Source: Hyphomicrobiales bacterium
Lineage (GTDB): Bacteria; Pseudomonadota; Alphaproteobacteria; Rhizobiales; Aestuariivirgaceae
DNA length: 11,345 bases
Direction of reading: 5' to 3'
NCBI GenBank assembly: GCA_025362535.1
Contig: JANYGE010000042.1
Location: 1-11,345, forward strand
Below, in pieces: positions 2,401 through 11,345 of the stretch. The notes below the pieces were generated by a model. That model had not been told where the DNA came from and searched no databases. It saw nothing but the letters and a program-made list of their open reading frames with translations. Made by a program: the position numbers and the translations under genes. Each line of letters begins with the position of its first letter. Position 1 is the stretch's first letter.

Positions 2401-3201
2401 CTATTCCGACTGTATAGTTTGCGCTGGAAGTAACAATCTGACGGCAACTACGCATAAGATGACTGTTAGCCCCAGAACTATAGTGACAAGTGCATTGATA
2501 TCAGGCGCAAAGCCAAGACGCATCATCGCCCAGAGCCGGATCGGCAGCGTGTTATCGGTTCCTGTAACCAACAAGGTGATCATGGTTTCATCAAAAGAGA
2601 GCGCAAAGCTCAGCACACCAGCGCCAACAAGTGTGCTGGCGAGATTTGGTAATATGATAAAGCGGAGCGTCTGCCCGGGCGATGCACCAAGATCAGTTGA
2701 AGCCTCAATCAAACTCGGTCCCAGCGACTGCAGCCGCGTGACGATGGTGCGATAGGAAAGTGCCAGCACAAATAATGTATGGCCGGTGATGACCGTGAGC
2801 ATTGAACGGGGAATGCCAGTTTCACGAAAGAAAATAAGCAGCGACAGCCCGGTTATGATCGGTGGCATAAGGAAGGGCAAAAATACTGTGAAGTGCATGA
2901 GATCACGGGCAAGCGAAGTGCCGCCGCAATAATGCAGTGCCAGCAATGTGCCGATGATCAATGCGAGAAAGGTTGCTGAAAACCCAACAATCAAAGTGTT
3001 GCGGACAGCCGTAAGTATGCCAGCATTCTGAGCCAGCGCCTGATAGGCCGATAGAGATGGCTCGTGCCATTGCACCTCACCGTGGGCAATGTTGAAAAAT
3101 GATGAGATGATCGGGATCAGCAATGGCCCATAGAGTGCTATAAACACCAGCATCGTAGCAAACGAGAGCGCGACCAGCGCCACGCGGGATAAGTGCATCA
3201 T
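2401..3201 (-). CDS. ABC transporter permease, PotC-like (polyamine-type)
   Basis: This is the second inner-membrane permease of a polyamine/iron-type importer (266 residues, the usual size for PotC/PotI). It has about six membrane helices: an N-terminal helix at ~8-36, then a periplasmic loop, and the core TM domain from ~66. The EAA loop that docks on the ABC ATPase is at residues ~166-185 (EASTDLGASPGQTLRFIILP), with the characteristic E-A-x-x-D-L-G-A and terminal LP. FDETMITLLVTG (~203-214) is also typical of this family. Its ATG (3199-3201) overlaps the stop of the upstream permease in an ATGA arrangement, so the two are translationally coupled. A second ATG directly follows the first and could equally serve. 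No ATPase gene follows. Substrate is undetermined. Confidence 0.92.
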   Translation of the reverse strand: MMHLSRVALVALSFATMLVFIALYGPLLIPIISSFFNIAHGEVQWHEPSLSAYQALAQNAGILTAVRNTLIVGFSATFLALIIGTLLALHYCGGTSLARDLMHFTVFLPFLMPPIITGLSLLIFFRETGIPRSMLTVITGHTLFVLALSYRTIVTRLQSLGPSLIEASTDLGASPGQTLRFIILPNLASTLVGAGVLSFALSFDETMITLLVTGTDNTLPIRLWAMMRLGFAPDINALVTIVLGLTVILCVVAVRLLLPAQTIQSE

Positions 3202-4055
3202 GTGTGGCGATGCTCCAGCCTATTACCCACCATAATAACGGCAATAACGATGATGCCGAGAATGGTGGAAAGTGCAGCGCCAAAAGGCCAATTAAAAGCT
3301 GTCCCAAACTGGCTGTAAATGATGCGTCCAAAGGTAAAGCCGCTCTGGCCACCCACCATTTGCGGTGTCAGAAAATCACCGATAGCGAGAACGAAAACAA
3401 AAGTTGCAGCTGACACGATGCCGGGCAGGCTGAGAGGCAGAACAATATGCCGAAAAGTTTGCATGCCAGACGCCCCAAGATCGGTTGATGCATCGATAAG
3501 GCTTCTGGGGATGCGTTCGAGCGAGAGAAAGATGGGTAAGATGGCAAAGGGGATCAGCAGCACAGTCAGCGTGAGCAACACCGCATTGAGATTGAAAACA
3601 AAAAGCGTCAGCGGTTGGTCAATAAGACCGATCCAAAGAAGAAACCTATTGAGCAGTCCGTTGCCACCTAGGATACTGCGAATGGCATAGATTTTGATGA
3701 TGTAACTCATCAGCAGAGGCACGAGCACGAGCAACAGTAGAATGTGTCTGCGGCGGCCTTTGAGATTGGCCAGCAGGAAAGCAACCGGATACCCAAATAA
3801 AATTGTGAGTGCCGCGACCGCAAAGCAAAGCAAACTGGTCTGCCACAAGACCGGAATGAAAATCGCGTCAGTGAAAAAGCGAATATAATTCCCCAAGCTC
3901 GGCGTGTAGTTTACATTGCCATTTTCAAGATGGAAAAAGCCATAGGCGAGGAAGCTGGCAAGCGGTAGCACAATGAAGAGCAGAGGTACGCCATAGCTGA
4001 CACCTGCCAAGAGACGTGGCCAGAGACTTTTGCGGGACGCACCGATGAATAGCAT
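3198..4055 (-). CDS. ABC transporter permease, PotB-like (polyamine-type)
   Basis: This is the first permease subunit of the importer, 285 residues from the ATG at 4055. That start is preferred over the GTG at 4100 because AAGG lies about 7 bases before it and a strong stem-loop occupies the stretch between the two candidates. It has six predicted membrane helices, the first at ~20-40. The EAA loop (DASTDLGASGMQTFRHIVLP, ~188-207) contacts the ATPase. LAIGDFLTPQMVGG (~223-236) is the counterpart of the GDF-x-T-x-x-x-x-GG signature of PotB/PotH proteins. It sits between the binding-protein gene (stop 4116) and the PotC-like gene, overlapping the latter by 4 bases. The pair should form a heterodimeric channel. 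Confidence 0.92.
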   Translation of the reverse strand: MLFIGASRKSLWPRLLAGVSYGVPLLFIVLPLASFLAYGFFHLENGNVNYTPSLGNYIRFFTDAIFIPVLWQTSLLCFAVAALTILFGYPVAFLLANLKGRRRHILLLLVLVPLLMSYIIKIYAIRSILGGNGLLNRFLLWIGLIDQPLTLFVFNLNAVLLTLTVLLIPFAILPIFLSLERIPRSLIDASTDLGASGMQTFRHIVLPLSLPGIVSAATFVFVLAIGDFLTPQMVGGQSGFTFGRIIYSQFGTAFNWPFGAALSTILGIIVIAVIMVGNRLEHRHT

Positions 4056-4073
4056 AGAGCAACCTTGAAACTG

Positions 4074-4098
4074 GTGGTCCGGCTCCAAACCGGACCAC
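4074..4098 (-). other. Intercistronic stem-loop between binding protein and permease genes
   Basis: This is a perfect 9-bp inverted repeat, GTGGTCCGG (4074-4082) and CCGGACCAC (4090-4098), with a 7-base loop. It lies just after the binding-protein stop codon and before the PotB-like ribosome binding site. No T run follows it, so it is not a simple terminator. Such hairpins often protect the 3' end of the binding-protein message and lower permease expression relative to it; that role here is inferred. Confidence 0.6.
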
Positions 4099-4115
4099 AC
4101 AGCAATAGTTTATGA

Positions 4116-5147
4116 TCAGGGTTGAGCCTTGATTTCATTCCACATGTCGGAACGCTTGGTAGCATCCTCGACGAAATCGAGCCAAACCAACTTATCATTG
4201 GCTCCAGCACTTCCCGTTTCAACAACAGTATTGCCGAAGCCTGTGCGTAGCGAAAGTTGCTCGCCAATTTTTTTCTGCAGCAGGAAGTTGACCCATGCGG
4301 CAGCAAGGTCTTGATCCTGTACACCACTGGTCATGGCCCATGTATCAAGCCAAGCGAGTGCGCCTTCCTTCGGGTTCACATAGGCGATGTTGGCACCAGC
4401 ATCTTTCATGGCCTTCACCTGCTGTTGGCCATAGTTGGCCCAGATCAGAGCGATATCGTTGCTCTTGTAAAGTTGCAGGGCTTCATCAGGTGTAGTGTAG
4501 AAGCTCAACACATTGCCTTTCAGAGCGATCAGCTTTTCCTTGATTTTGGCCATTTGCTCAGGCGTGAGGTGGAATGGATCCTCGATGCCCAATGTCAATG
4601 CGGTGAAGGAAAAATTATGCTCGCCATTGTCATAGGCCAGAATCTTGCCTTTGTATTTTGGATCCCAGAAACTCTCGAAGCTGTCAGGCGCTGGGTTCAC
4701 TTTATCCTTGTCGTAAATGATTCCAATAGAATCGAAGCAGAATGGAATCGCGTGAACCTTGCCATCGCGCATAACGCCTTTGACCTTGGAAAGATCCTGA
4801 AAGCGCGGCAGCACGGCTTTCTGATTGGGGATTTTTGAAACATCATGCGGGGTGGTGAGTCCGCCATCAATATAGCGTTGTAACTGAGCCGTATTTACAG
4901 CAAAGACATCAAAATCCTTGCCTTCGCTGCCTTTCATTTTGGCCCAAATTTCATCATCGGTTCCAATAAATACAACATTTGCTGTTGCACCTGTCTGGTC
5001 TTGGAACTCCTTGACCCAATCGTCATCAGCATAGCCTTGCCATGCCATAACTCTTAATTCTTTTGCCGCAAAGGCGTTGGTTGTGCGCAAAATTGCGGGG
5101 GCAGCAAGGGCTAACCCCAGTGCTTTACGCCTATTAAGTTTCAACAT
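4116..5147 (-). CDS. Extracellular solute-binding protein, PotD/PotF-like
   Basis: This is the periplasmic receptor of the ABC importer, 343 residues from the ATG at 5147. An upstream in-frame ATG at 5165 is rejected because it overlaps the Shine-Dalgarno sequence GGAGGAGAAG (5154-5163). The signal peptide occupies ~1-27: NRRKAL, hydrophobic GLALAAPAIL, and a probable cleavage after AFA. The adjacent arginines make Tat export possible, though the motif is degenerate. The mature protein starts LRVMAWQGYADDD, typical of spermidine/putrescine-binding proteins (family 1 / PotD), and includes FDVFAVNTAQLQRYIDGGL, GIIYDKDKV and FWDPKYKGKI. EGALAWLDTWAM (~261-272) contains the W-x-D pair found where PotD contacts polyamine amino groups. 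A cationic or amine-containing ligand is therefore likely, but polyamine itself is not proven. Confidence 0.9.
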   Translation of the reverse strand: MLKLNRRKALGLALAAPAILRTTNAFAAKELRVMAWQGYADDDWVKEFQDQTGATANVVFIGTDDEIWAKMKGSEGKDFDVFAVNTAQLQRYIDGGLTTPHDVSKIPNQKAVLPRFQDLSKVKGVMRDGKVHAIPFCFDSIGIIYDKDKVNPAPDSFESFWDPKYKGKILAYDNGEHNFSFTALTLGIEDPFHLTPEQMAKIKEKLIALKGNVLSFYTTPDEALQLYKSNDIALIWANYGQQQVKAMKDAGANIAYVNPKEGALAWLDTWAMTSGVQDQDLAAAWVNFLLQKKIGEQLSLRTGFGNTVVETGSAGANDKLVWLDFVEDATKRSDMWNEIKAQP

Positions 5148-5153
5148 AATCTG

Positions 5154-5163
5154 CTTCTCCTCC
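5154..5163 (-). promoter_or_regulatory. Strong ribosome binding site of the binding-protein gene
   Basis: The minus strand reads GGAGGAGAAG, ending 6 bases before the ATG at 5147. It fixes that start and is the strongest Shine-Dalgarno in the operon, fitting the high expression usual for binding proteins. Confidence 0.75.
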
Positions 5164-5181
5164 ATTTGGTCTTTGTTTTAA

Positions 5182-5985
5182 TTACACCCAGCCACCGTCA
5201 ACAATATAGTTTTGCGATGTACACATGCGGCTATCGTCGGCAGCAAGGAATAGCACCATGCGGGCAATATCGGCGGCATAGAGTTTTTCAGCCAAGCACT
5301 GGCGATCTTTAATTTGTCTTTCGCCCGCTTCATTGAGCCAGAGCTTAACTTGGCGGTCCGTCATCACCCACCCGGGAAGCACGCAATTGACGCGAATCTT
5401 CTCCGGACCCAATTCGCGTGCGAGGGCGCGTGTAAGGCCGCCAATCGCGGCCTTCGCCGTGACATAGGCCGGGCAATCGGGGTCGCCGACCAGCCACGTA
5501 ATTGACCCTAAATTGATGATTGATCCAGCACCGGCATCGCGCATCTGTATCCGAGCAGCCTGCGCCGCAAAGAACTGATGGCGCAAATTCACTTGCATGC
5601 GGTCATCCCAATATTCAACGGTCACGCTCTCCGTAGTGTGGCGGTCATCATTGCCTGCATTATTGACCAATACGCGCAGAGGCCCATGGCGCTGCCCGGC
5701 TTCGACTATAGAGGCGCGCAGCGCGTCAATGTCTCGCAGGTCGCATTTTATAAAATGCGGAGCATGCGCAACATTCGGCTTCAATCTTTCAACCACAGCT
5801 CGCGAGACATCTTCAGCAATATCAACAAAGCAAACTTTGGCACCTTGGGTGGCGAAATGTTCTACCAAACTTTCACCGATACCGCTGCCGCCGCCACTGA
5901 TGAACACACTGCGCCCTGCTAGACTTGGATATGAAGCTGGTTTTTCAATTGCGCCCTGCGCGTCGAGCGGCTGTGTGCTGGTCAT
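5182..5985 (-). CDS. SDR-family sugar 1-dehydrogenase (XylB/galactose dehydrogenase-like)
   Basis: This 267-residue classical short-chain dehydrogenase is the first gene of the minus-strand operon. It carries the nucleotide-binding GGGSGIG (31-37), an acidic Asp in FVDI (~55) that favours NAD over NADP, NNAGNDDRH (108-116), Asn at ~133 in VNLRH, and catalytic Ser161, Tyr174 and Lys178. NNAGNDDRH, EYWDDRMQVNLRH, QCL and VLFLAADDSRMCTSQNYIVDGGWV closely resemble, from memory, the Caulobacter D-xylose dehydrogenase XylB and rhizobial galactose dehydrogenases. These oxidise aldoses at C1 to lactones. The exact sugar is not readable. It carries a ~20-residue N-terminal extension before the YPSLAGR start common to the family. 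The ATG at 5985 has only a weak upstream AGG. The gap to the binding-protein start is 34 bases, consistent with co-transcription. Confidence 0.88.
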   Translation of the reverse strand: MTSTQPLDAQGAIEKPASYPSLAGRSVFISGGGSGIGESLVEHFATQGAKVCFVDIAEDVSRAVVERLKPNVAHAPHFIKCDLRDIDALRASIVEAGQRHGPLRVLVNNAGNDDRHTTESVTVEYWDDRMQVNLRHQFFAAQAARIQMRDAGAGSIINLGSITWLVGDPDCPAYVTAKAAIGGLTRALARELGPEKIRVNCVLPGWVMTDRQVKLWLNEAGERQIKDRQCLAEKLYAADIARMVLFLAADDSRMCTSQNYIVDGGWV

Positions 5986-6070
5986 AGCTGAGAAACCTAA
6001 TTCCTAAAGTCAAAAGTAAGAATGGGGGCAAGTTCATAAGGGAGTCAAGAGCGCGATCCGGCGTGGCTTG

Positions 6071-6083
6071 CATATGACATATG
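6071..6083. repeat. Central 13-base palindrome, candidate operator
   Basis: CATATG, a single A, and CATATG again form an odd-length palindrome centred on 6077. It coincides with the centre of symmetry of the flanking TTGACTCCC inverted repeat. A dimeric regulator site is a reasonable reading, but it is inferred from symmetry alone. Confidence 0.45.
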
Positions 6084-6104
6084 AGCGAGCAACATCCACA
6101 CACA

Positions 6105-6132
6105 TTGACTCCCGATAACATCAGCATATGCT
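6105..6132 (+). promoter_or_regulatory. Candidate sigma-70-type promoter for the aminotransferase operon
   Basis: TTGACT (6105-6110; 5 of 6 consensus) and TATGCT (6127-6132; 4 of 6) are separated by 16 bases. Transcription would begin about 6138-6140, upstream of the ATG at 6162 but downstream of the alternative ATG at 6081. The -10 lies inside the palindrome AGCATATGCT, which could act as an operator. The opposing promoter would use TTGACT read from 6048 to 6043, but its -10 is weak. Confidence 0.45.
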
Positions 6133-6161
6133 CCCAACTTAAGCTGCATGGAGCACCCCCA

Positions 6162-7541
6162 ATGAATATCGAGATCAAAAAAAGCAATTACAATAACGAC
6201 GCTCTCATGCTGGGTTTCAGCGATTTGAAGCGGTTGAAGACAGAACGCCCCTTGGTGTTTAGCAAGGGCAAAGGCATTTTCATTTATGATGAGAACGGCA
6301 GAGACTATATTGAATCGGTGTCGTGTTTCTATTGCGTATCCTTGGGGTTCAGTGAGGAGCGACTGGTAGAAGCGGCCTATAAGCAGATGAAAGAATTGCC
6401 GATGTATTCCTCGGCCATTCACCGCACAGTGCCTGCGGTTATGGAATTGACTGAGCGCTTGGCAGCCCTTTCACCCATCAAGAATCCGCGCATCTATTTT
6501 TCAACGACAGGCTCGGAAGCCGTCGATTATCTCGTAAAATTCATGTGGTATGGCAATAGTTTCGCTGGCGAACCCAATCGCCGCAAAATTATCTCGCGCA
6601 AATCCAGCTATCATGGGTCGACAATTGCAACATCTGCACTCGGGGGATCACAGGATCTGCAGGATAGCTTTGGCATTCCCATGGGCTTTTCGCTGCAGGT
6701 GAGCCATCCAAGCTGGCCAAATGCCGGTCTTCCGGGCGAGACAGAAGAAGGCTTTACAGATCGCTTGGCGGAAGAACTTGAACAAACGATCCTTGCTGCC
6801 GGCCCTGAAACCATCGGTGCCATGATTGCGGAGCCAATGTCGGTCTCCGCTGGCATGTTTCCTCCACCTGCAAGCTATTTTCCAAAAATCACCAAGGTGC
6901 TGAAGAAGTATGGCATCCAGCTATTCGTGGATGAAGTCGTTACAGGCTTTGGCCGTTCGGGACGCATGTGGGCCACCGAAGCGATGGGCCTTGAACCCAA
7001 TTGCATGACAACGGCCAAAGGCATCTCTGGAGCCTATATGCCAATTGCTGGCATCATCATGGATGAAGAGTTCAACCGCCGTCTTGACTTGGGCAATGAG
7101 GCCAAAGGTTGGTTTGCACACGGTGCCACCCATCATGCGCATGTTGTTTCGGCTGCGGTGGCCGTGGAAGTTCTAAACATTTTTGAAGAGCGCGATATTC
7201 TGGGCCATGTGCGCGGCGTGATGCCCGCCTGGAACCGCATGCTGGATAGCCTGATGGACCACCCGCTTGTTGTGGGCAATCGCAAATGGGGCCTCGCTGG
7301 GGCGATTGAAGTGGCTTACCCGGGTGAGGGCCGGGCCGGGCCTGCTGCAAGCTTGAAGGTTGGTGGCGTGGTCAAGGAAGTCTATGAAGCAGGATTGGCA
7401 GAAGGCGTGATCGTGCGACCATTGGCTGGTTGTTTTGTTATGGCACCGCCTTTGATCATCACTGAAGCTGAGATAACAGAACTTGGCCGCCGTGTTCGTG
7501 CTGCTCTAGACCGCGTGTTGGCGAACCAACCAGCGCGTTAA
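6162..7541 (+). CDS. Class III (omega) PLP-dependent aminotransferase
   Basis: This is a cytoplasmic fold-type I aminotransferase of the omega-amino-acid/amine:pyruvate group, 459 residues from the ATG at 6162. That start has GGAG 8 bases upstream and lies downstream of the candidate promoter; an in-frame ATG at 6081 is rejected for the opposite reasons. Motifs (numbered from 6162) are SCFYCVSLGFS (~54-64, equivalent to the family's LWCVNxGY), STTGSEAVD for the PLP phosphate (~114-122), SYHG (149-152), FVDEVVTGFGRSG with the pyridine-nitrogen Asp257, and TTAKGISGAYMPI with Schiff-base Lys286. VRPLAG carries Arg419, in the place of the switching arginine that binds acceptor carboxylates. The usual HGxTYSGHP phosphate loop reads HGATHHAHV, keeping the Thr but losing GHP. 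It heads the plus-strand operon and probably removes an amino group from the imported compound or a product of it. Confidence 0.92.
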   Translation: MNIEIKKSNYNNDALMLGFSDLKRLKTERPLVFSKGKGIFIYDENGRDYIESVSCFYCVSLGFSEERLVEAAYKQMKELPMYSSAIHRTVPAVMELTERLAALSPIKNPRIYFSTTGSEAVDYLVKFMWYGNSFAGEPNRRKIISRKSSYHGSTIATSALGGSQDLQDSFGIPMGFSLQVSHPSWPNAGLPGETEEGFTDRLAEELEQTILAAGPETIGAMIAEPMSVSAGMFPPPASYFPKITKVLKKYGIQLFVDEVVTGFGRSGRMWATEAMGLEPNCMTTAKGISGAYMPIAGIIMDEEFNRRLDLGNEAKGWFAHGATHHAHVVSAAVAVEVLNIFEERDILGHVRGVMPAWNRMLDSLMDHPLVVGNRKWGLAGAIEVAYPGEGRAGPAASLKVGGVVKEVYEAGLAEGVIVRPLAGCFVMAPPLIITEAEITELGRRVRAALDRVLANQPAR

Positions 7542-7616
7542 GGTTCAGTTCTGGCATTCTAAGCGCACTTTTTTTCCTTGCTTGATCTTCGTGAATTTGC
7601 GCGTCAAACTGTTGTG

Positions 7617-8732
7617 ATGAACAAACGTATTCTTCAATTTGGAACCAGCCGGTTTTTACAAGCCCATGTAGATTTATTTGTGCATGAGGCGCGCGAAGCT
7701 GGCCAGAATATTGGGCCTATCACGGTGGTAAAAACCACGCGCGCGGGCACACGCGAAAATCGCATCGTAGGATTTCAGGATGTTAAGGGTTTTCCAGTTC
7801 ATTTGCAGGGCTCCCAGGCTGGCCAAATTGTTGATGTTATCTCTCATGTCACCAGTGTTCAGCGTGCCCTTGATGCGAATTTGGAATGGCAAGAGGTAAA
7901 ACGGATCTTTGCCGCCGAGACCGAGATTGTGGTTTCGAATGTTGGTGAGCGTGGCTATGATTTGGCCGCTGAAGCTGATGCCTTGTCGCCGACACAGGCG
8001 CCTCAGAGTTTTCCCGCAAAATTACTGGCCCTTTTGATCCATCGTTTTGAAAATGGTGCGGCACCCCTGCTCATTCTCCCCTGTGAACTTGTGAGCAGCA
8101 ATGGTCAGGTGTTGCGTGGGATTTTGAATGAGCTTGGTGCTAGATGGAATGTAAGCACTGCATTCAGCTCATGGTTGGTGCGCGATGTGATGATTTGCGA
8201 TACGCTGGTGGACCGGATCGTATCTGAAGCCATTGAGCCCATTGGTGCCATTGGCGAGCCCTATGGTCTATGGGCGATCAAACGCGAGACTGGATTTGAG
8301 CCGCCCTTGCGGCATCCATGCATCGTCTACACTGATGATCTTGAACCCTATCTGCGGCTGAAGCTTCACATTCTGAATTTGGGCCACACTTATTTGGCGC
8401 AGATTTGGCAAGATGAAAAGCGGCGCGGCGATGAGACTGTGCGGGAGATTTTGAGTGACGCTGCGATAAAGAATCGCCTGATGAGCCTTTACAATAATGA
8501 AGTGATCCCAGGTTTTGCTGCGCACAACATGCGAGATCAAGCAGCTAACTATGTGATCTCCACCGTAGAGCGTTTCGAGAATCCTTTTCTAAACCACAGA
8601 ATTAGCGATATTGCACAAAATCACGTGGCGAAAATTGAACGGCGGGTTCGAGATTTCATCACTTGGTCACGGGCTAAAGATGCAAAGCTAGAGTTTCCAC
8701 GGCTTCAGGCTTTGGCGGAGACCGTGGTCTAA
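7617..8732 (+). CDS. Mannitol dehydrogenase-family oxidoreductase (mannonate/tagaturonate reductase-like)
   Basis: This protein of the polyol-specific long-chain dehydrogenase family interconverts a keto-sugar or keto-acid and its alcohol with NAD(H). It has 371 residues from the ATG at 7617; a TTG at 7578 would add 13 unlikely residues, and neither start has a clear ribosome binding site. It opens with RILQFGTSRFLQAHVDLFV, the family's nucleotide-binding strand-turn-helix. It continues with VSNVGERGYD (~106-115), PCELVSSNGQVLRGI (~155-169), NAD/substrate-domain segments VDRIVSEAIEP (~198-208) and GEPYGLWAI. The catalytic array K-x4-N-x2-H is seen in LKLHILNLGHTYLA (Lys249, Asn254, His257). 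It is shorter than classical mannitol dehydrogenase (~490) and belongs to a compact subfamily often labelled only 'mannitol dehydrogenase family protein'. The substrate is unknown. It lies 75 bases after the aminotransferase and overlaps selO by one base. Confidence 0.88.
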   Translation: MNKRILQFGTSRFLQAHVDLFVHEAREAGQNIGPITVVKTTRAGTRENRIVGFQDVKGFPVHLQGSQAGQIVDVISHVTSVQRALDANLEWQEVKRIFAAETEIVVSNVGERGYDLAAEADALSPTQAPQSFPAKLLALLIHRFENGAAPLLILPCELVSSNGQVLRGILNELGARWNVSTAFSSWLVRDVMICDTLVDRIVSEAIEPIGAIGEPYGLWAIKRETGFEPPLRHPCIVYTDDLEPYLRLKLHILNLGHTYLAQIWQDEKRRGDETVREILSDAAIKNRLMSLYNNEVIPGFAAHNMRDQAANYVISTVERFENPFLNHRISDIAQNHVAKIERRVRDFITWSRAKDAKLEFPRLQALAETVV

Positions 8733-10154: not shown

Positions 10155-11249
10155 TTACCCCAACCTCAAACGCCCCAACACTTGCTTCACGCTTTTCGCC
10201 AGCTTCTCCACAATTTCGGTCAGTTCCGCATCGGTGGCATTATAGGGTGGCGCCAGAATGATCACATCACCATTCACGCCATCCACATTACCACCTACAG
10301 GGTAGCAGATCAGACCATTGTCAAAGGCTTGCGCGCGGATATGCATGAAAAGCTTATGTTCTGCAGCAAAAGGCTTTTTGGTTTGGCGGTTAGCAACCAA
10401 TTCAGCCGCCATGAAATAGCCTCGACCCCGAATATCGCCCACAGCATCAATGCCAAAAAGCGCATCAGCCATCATTGATTTTAACTTCTGTTCATTTGCC
10501 GCCACACGCTCTACCAATTTTTCGCGGGTTACAATTTTTTGCACAGCAACGCCTGCAGCACAGCAGGCGGTATGGCCTGTAAAGGTGTGGCCGGTTTGCG
10601 GCTGGTGGTTGAAAGCCTCGCTTACTTTATCGGAGTAAATCGCAGCACCAAGCGGCAGATAGCCTGCGGCCAAGCCTTTGGCGACCGACATGATATCAGG
10701 TTCGACGCCATCTTTGTCCAACGCGCGCCAGGTGCCGGTGCGCCCGGCTCCACACATCACCTCATCGGAGATCATGAGCACGCCATATTGATCACAAATT
10801 TCACGAATGCGCTTGGCATAGCCATCGGGGGCTGGCACACAGCCACCTGCTGCACCAACGACAGGTTCAAAAATGAAGGCCGCCACTTTATCGGGGCCAA
10901 GGCGTAAGATTTCGTCTTCCAATTCCTGCGCACAAGCCAAGCCATTGTTCTGGCCAATCGGGCGGTAATCATTGGCAGGTGACAATCTAGAGACATCCAG
11001 CAATGAGCCTTCAAAAGCGGCTTTGCGTTCTTCAAATGCCGCAAGGAGTGCTTGTTTGACTTCGTTTGAAAGTTTTCCCAGGGTAGGACGTTCCTCTTTA
11101 GGAACGTTTTTCATGAGCTCTAGAACTGCTGGAAGTTTGCCTTGGCGGGAGAGGTAGGTGATTCTCCATTGTTCCAGGGCATTGGCATCAGGAGATGCTT
11201 GAAGCGCTGAAAGAGCTTCATTGCGAAGATTTTCAAGATCTTGAATCAT
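10155..11249 (-). CDS. Chimeric frame: PheS N-terminal domain joined to aminotransferase class III C-terminal part
   Basis: This frame of 364 codons joins two unrelated families. Residues 1-80 (MIQDLENLRNEA, then WRITYLSRQGKLP and PKEERPTLGKLSNEVKQAL) match the N-terminal tRNA-binding coiled-coil domain of phenylalanyl-tRNA synthetase alpha (PheS). From ~81 it is the large/C-terminal part of a class III aminotransferase: LLDVSRLSPANDYR, FIFEPVVGAAGG (~126-135), LMISDEVMCGAGRTG with Asp162, SVAKGLAAGYLPLGA with PLP Lys191, and HTFTGH with Thr223. PheS catalytic motifs are absent. So are roughly the first 175 aminotransferase residues, including the GSEAxE phosphate loop. Neither activity is expected to be intact. 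The junction is near 11000-11015. The ATG lies downstream of a terminator-like hairpin, a place where pheS normally sits after rplT. It converges on selO with 4 bases between stop codons. It is either a genuine rearrangement or an assembly chimera. Confidence 0.8.
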   Translation of the reverse strand: MIQDLENLRNEALSALQASPDANALEQWRITYLSRQGKLPAVLELMKNVPKEERPTLGKLSNEVKQALLAAFEERKAAFEGSLLDVSRLSPANDYRPIGQNNGLACAQELEDEILRLGPDKVAAFIFEPVVGAAGGCVPAPDGYAKRIREICDQYGVLMISDEVMCGAGRTGTWRALDKDGVEPDIMSVAKGLAAGYLPLGAAIYSDKVSEAFNHQPQTGHTFTGHTACCAAGVAVQKIVTREKLVERVAANEQKLKSMMADALFGIDAVGDIRGRGYFMAAELVANRQTKKPFAAEHKLFMHIRAQAFDNGLICYPVGGNVDGVNGDVIILAPPYNATDAELTEIVEKLAKSVKQVLGRLRLG

Positions 11250-11260
11250 AAATCGCTTGG

Positions 11261-11302
11261 TATAAAAAGAAGAATGCGAGACCTTATAAGAGATCTCGCA
11301 TT
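11261..11302 (-). terminator. Rho-independent terminator or attenuator upstream of the pheS-like start
   Basis: On the minus strand a perfect 9-bp stem, AATGCGAGA/TCTCGCATT (+ strand 11273-11281 and 11294-11302), with a 12-base loop is followed by CTTCTTTTT (11272 down to 11264). It would end minus-strand transcripts from the right, as expected after rplT. Lying just before a pheS-type start it could also act as an attenuator, but no Phe-rich leader peptide is seen. Confidence 0.7.
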
Positions 11303-11320
11303 GTAAATTCTAGAAGTTTT

Positions 11321-11344
11321 CTACTTTGCTTGTACTGATTTAAC
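11321..11344 (-). CDS. Possible 3' end of rplT (ribosomal protein L20), seven codons
   Basis: Reading the minus strand from the right edge gives VKSVQAK then TAG, 19 bases before the hairpin. L20 proteins often end in a short Val/Lys/Ala-rich helix, and rplT normally precedes pheS. Seven codons alone identify nothing, so the call rests on synteny with the PheS segment and the terminator. Confidence 0.35.
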   Translation of the reverse strand, partial: VKSVQAK

Positions 11345-11345
11345 G

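Follow-up and report, generated by a model that had tools for sequence, protein, structure and literature searches.

The contig end and its open frame

The window, that is, the whole stretch of 11,345 nucleotides analysed, is a complete contig (G000:C227), so that its right edge is the end of the contig; it belongs to a draft genome (hereafter, the bin) of 469 contigs totalling 2.80 Mb, with an estimated completeness of 92.8% and contamination of 1.5%. Near this edge, the minus-strand frame 11249-10155 forms a single ORF of 364 codons (364 amino acids), PheS-like over residues 1-80 and class III aminotransferase over residues 74-364, which remains open through the join. This composition, read by the first-pass annotation from the open frame, is borne out by Pfam matches to both halves, each exceeding the cut-offs: Phe_tRNA-synt_N at frame residues 21-80 (E 4e-19) and Aminotran_3 at residues 75-352 (E 3.3e-55; profile positions 144-401 of 403). 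The features of the contig end are collected in Table 1.

Table 1. Features at the right end of the contig, with the basis of each assignment
Feature	Position	Strand	Basis
3' part of class III aminotransferase gene (frame residues 74-364), the bin's own	10155..11030	-	P0005 identity, Aminotran_3 match, same-genus relatives
Join zone, codons 74-80 (ERKAAFE), compatible with both parents	11010..11030	-	Codon positions; comparison with P0005 and P0001
PheS N-terminal piece (residues 1-80), foreign to the bin	11010..11249	-	Phe_tRNA-synt_N, P0001 identity, tree
Inverted repeat followed by T-rich run (minus strand), terminator-like, between rplT-like tail and pheS start	11273..11302	-	By eye
VKSVQAK-stop, probable end of rplT gene, truncated at the contig end	11321..11344	-	Translation; seven residues, too short for a homology test

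The aminotransferase part

Over frame residues 74-364, P0005 (its residues 149-439) agrees at all 291 positions and P0006 at 290; these two proteins, of 439 amino acids each, are the best two matches to the whole frame. The identity with P0005 from residue 74 onward indicates that an intact version of the gene exists in another assembly; upstream of that residue, the ungapped agreement is 3/73. The aminotransferase sequence, previously taken to start at LLDVSRLSP, thus reaches back to residue 74 (ERKAAFEGSLLDVSRLSP), which moves the join from the proposed 11000-11020 to within about 11010-11030. The N-terminal truncation that had been claimed stands, its extent being 148 of the 439 residues of P0005 and not about 175; the missing portion includes the segment around GGSEAVES, which we take to be the cofactor phosphate loop. 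In comparison with class III aminotransferases (PF00202; nearest NCBIfam model PRK07483), the likeness lies in the part equal to P0005, whereas the loss of the N-terminal residues leaves the PF00202 fold incomplete, and the score with NF005685 is 328 bits against a cut-off of 485.

The whole-frame search returned 5536 proteins at E <= 0.001 (8000 candidates scored); PF00202 is present in all of the best 120, and among these none carries both halves or extends over more than 85% of the query. An aminotransferase 68-80% identical occurs in 22 of 24 same-genus genomes searched, in three of them (G008, G009, and G012) as contig-end fragments only, and is absent from G006 and G013. Outside the own genome, none of the matches listed in this same-genus search starts before query residue 64, and the junction, which the first-pass annotation had proposed to look for in related strains, is shared by none of the relatives listed. 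The missing 5' part, for which a search of the genome had likewise been proposed, was not recovered either: within the bin, P0005 closely matches the window alone (residues 143-439, 98%), all further matches being paralogues at most 35% identical.

The PheS part

A search with residues 1-82 only returned four proteins among 270 candidates, all of them carrying PheS domains; the best, P0001, is a complete PheS of 336 amino acids, identical to the frame at 64/80 positions over residues 1-80 and at 1/30 over residues 81-110. Searched separately, as the first-pass annotation had advised, the N-terminal half therefore matches PheS and not aminotransferases. In this half, the likeness to PheS (TIGR00468) comprises the N-terminal domain and the rplT-like tail upstream, and the difference is the catalytic part, absent from the frame; Phe_tRNA-synt_N is the only PheS domain found, in agreement with the lack of class II catalytic motifs already pointed out.

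Among 62 related loci, the nearest to P0001 from a named species is L056, of a Methylacidiphilales bacterium (Verrucomicrobiota), at 61%. In a tree of 53 N-terminal PheS domains, the window groups with P0001 (100/94) and then with L056 (99/98), apart from the 12 same-genus PheS, which fall in a 20-row alphaproteobacterial branch (100/97). These 53 rows were retained from 80 offered, with both strands read, the motif filter having removed 27 of the 60 loci L057-L116; since the tree has 90 columns and carried a warning of few columns and long branches, only its local groupings were used. L056 was considered as the donor and ruled out, as its genome contains one match to the PheS part of the window, only 54% identical over residues 2-81.

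The contig end beyond the PheS start is likewise rplT-like. The gene rplT lies upstream of pheS in L056 and in 6/6 same-genus genomes with both genes located, so that the VKSVQAK tail probably represents an rplT 3' end, and the attached foreign sequence would consist of a whole end piece rather than a single domain. Readable same-genus rplT ends are KAAQ or KAAQKAA (four of six loci, with the minus-strand L118 and L122 left out), that of L056 is KAAQAA, and the window tail equals none of them. The base composition of this contig end is supporting evidence only: G+C to the right of the join (11031-11345) is 41.9% against 51.8%, below all 428 overlapping windows of the rest, but the PheS coding part alone, at 45.7%, is mildly low, 8.0% of 1078 windows being as low. 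The PheS codons have a GC3 of 34%, compared with 54% for those of the aminotransferase, but among 611 windows taken from the aminotransferase and SelO genes the lowest also stands at 34%.

pheS in the bin

Because pheS is essential, the host must have it somewhere, and a second, complete copy had been predicted. No such copy was found in the own draft genome, where TIGR00468 has no match; rplT and pheT were also not found in the bin, despite its completeness rating, while both are present in 6/6 same-genus genomes searched, one with pheT in two pieces. The joint absence of the three genes probably reflects a gap in the bin; the lack of pheS fits this incompleteness and decides between no readings.

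The join

The join lies about 315-336 bases from the contig end, in a stretch where both families nearly coincide: ERKAAFE agrees at 7/7 residues with P0005 and at 6/7 with P0001, which has K for R at residue 75. A DNA word shared by the parents would therefore measure at most about 21 bases, and less if the true donor also differs at residue 75. The longer motif FLERKAAFE occurs in 13 of the 63 aminotransferases with a readable site (124 proteins considered). At the DNA level, same-genus and same-order genes agree with the window at 12 to 18 of the 21 bases (17 usable of 21 rows, with the minus-strand loci L013, L015, L020, and L025 left out), the best same-genus gene reaching 18/21. The minus-strand loci L045-L050, L052, and L053 were left out of another one-strand reading. 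Chance alone would give around four exact matches of 21 bases between two random genomes of 3 Mb each, so a shared word of this size would need no special cause.

Origin of the apparent fusion

Taken together, these data point very strongly to the apparent PheS-aminotransferase fusion being a metagenome-assembly chimera, an artefact rather than a new protein. The final 315-336 bases would come from a Verrucomicrobiota-like bacterium, containing the end of an rplT-like gene and the start of pheS, and assembly would have joined them, through a short sequence suiting both genes, to the aminotransferase gene of the bin, which is alphaproteobacterial; the fusion protein would then not exist, and each parent would have its normal, full-length gene. 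The result reads as one open frame because the seven residues encoded at the join are almost identical between the two families and are read in the same frame. Among the options of the first-pass annotation, an assembly chimera is thus the one favoured, by the Verrucomicrobiota-like PheS half and by the identical intact aminotransferase.

According to PMC7299287, shared k-mers joining genomes are a cause of chimeric contigs. The likeness to chimeric contigs of short-read metagenome assembly consists of two lineages in one contig with a short join stretch near the contig end; the difference is that the join here happens in frame, and the chimera consequently looks like a fusion gene. The two parts differ in lineage, as indicated by the PheS tree and the same-genus aminotransferase matches, and P0005 provides the intact version of the broken gene, without a mismatch beyond frame residue 73. 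The assembly reading also draws on the contig-end position and on the residue overlap at the join; the parents would have an exact DNA word in common at that point, and the joining would have taken place in assembly, not in a cell. Weighing against a chimera are the K of P0001 at residue 75, the imperfect agreement of the best same-genus site, the mildly low G+C of the coding part, and a GC3 value that is not unique to it.

A real recombination, in which a verrucomicrobial rplT-pheS piece entered one strain and became linked to the aminotransferase gene through a short microhomology, is in agreement with the frame being open through the join, and it would leave a broken gene, whether expressed or silent; it is nevertheless very improbable, given that an identical intact aminotransferase exists, that the join is common to no relative among the matches listed, that the frame lacks the beginning of the enzyme, and that the foreign piece extends to the contig end, with no second boundary seen. 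The variant in which such an event gave one strain of the alphaproteobacterium a genuine in-frame fusion, its aminotransferase domain carrying the coiled coil of a tRNA synthetase, has an equally slight chance of being correct. The partial-duplication scar and the new coiled-coil-aminotransferase protein that had also been put forward fare worse still. A partial copy of the bin's own pheS landing in the aminotransferase gene accords with the host necessarily having a pheS, none being found in the bin for direct comparison; the PheS half, however, is unlike the 12 same-genus PheS and groups with Verrucomicrobiota, which makes this origin extremely improbable. The same faint probability is given to a selected new protein with the PheS coiled coil attached to the aminotransferase domain, since, despite the open frame and the two well-supported domains, no relative with both halves appears among the best 120 of 5536 matches, the aminotransferase lacks its first third, including the GGSEAVES segment, and an intact aminotransferase exists.

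With an assembly chimera as the preferred reading, the contig serves as a warning: at the edge of a contig, a chimera that stays in frame can be mistaken in gene catalogues for a fusion of domains. What lies to the right of the join, 315-336 bases, is not to be counted as belonging to this organism, and annotation of this contig should include neither a fusion gene nor pheS.

The remainder of the contig

The SelO gene adjoining the join is present in 15 of 21 genomes searched, the own one included, with the nearest relative in the same genus at 64%; the remainder of the contig thus looks native. In the neighbourhood of the relatives' intact aminotransferase, across eight stretches of 3.6 to 19 kb, none of the nine other window proteins has a match above 45% identity (E <= 1e-30), so that gene order was uninformative. 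A search of the contig for RNA families and tRNAs found none. A tagaturonate-reductase-like frame of 384 amino acids (7578-8732, plus strand) covers positions 11-372 of a 482-position model, below the cut-off, and its C-terminus accordingly looks about 110 residues short. At 2401-7541, two frames that by eye resemble ABC permeases are grouped with a divergent second class III aminotransferase, a polyamine-type solute-binding protein, and an SDR dehydrogenase; the group has the look of a common cluster for uptake and catabolism.
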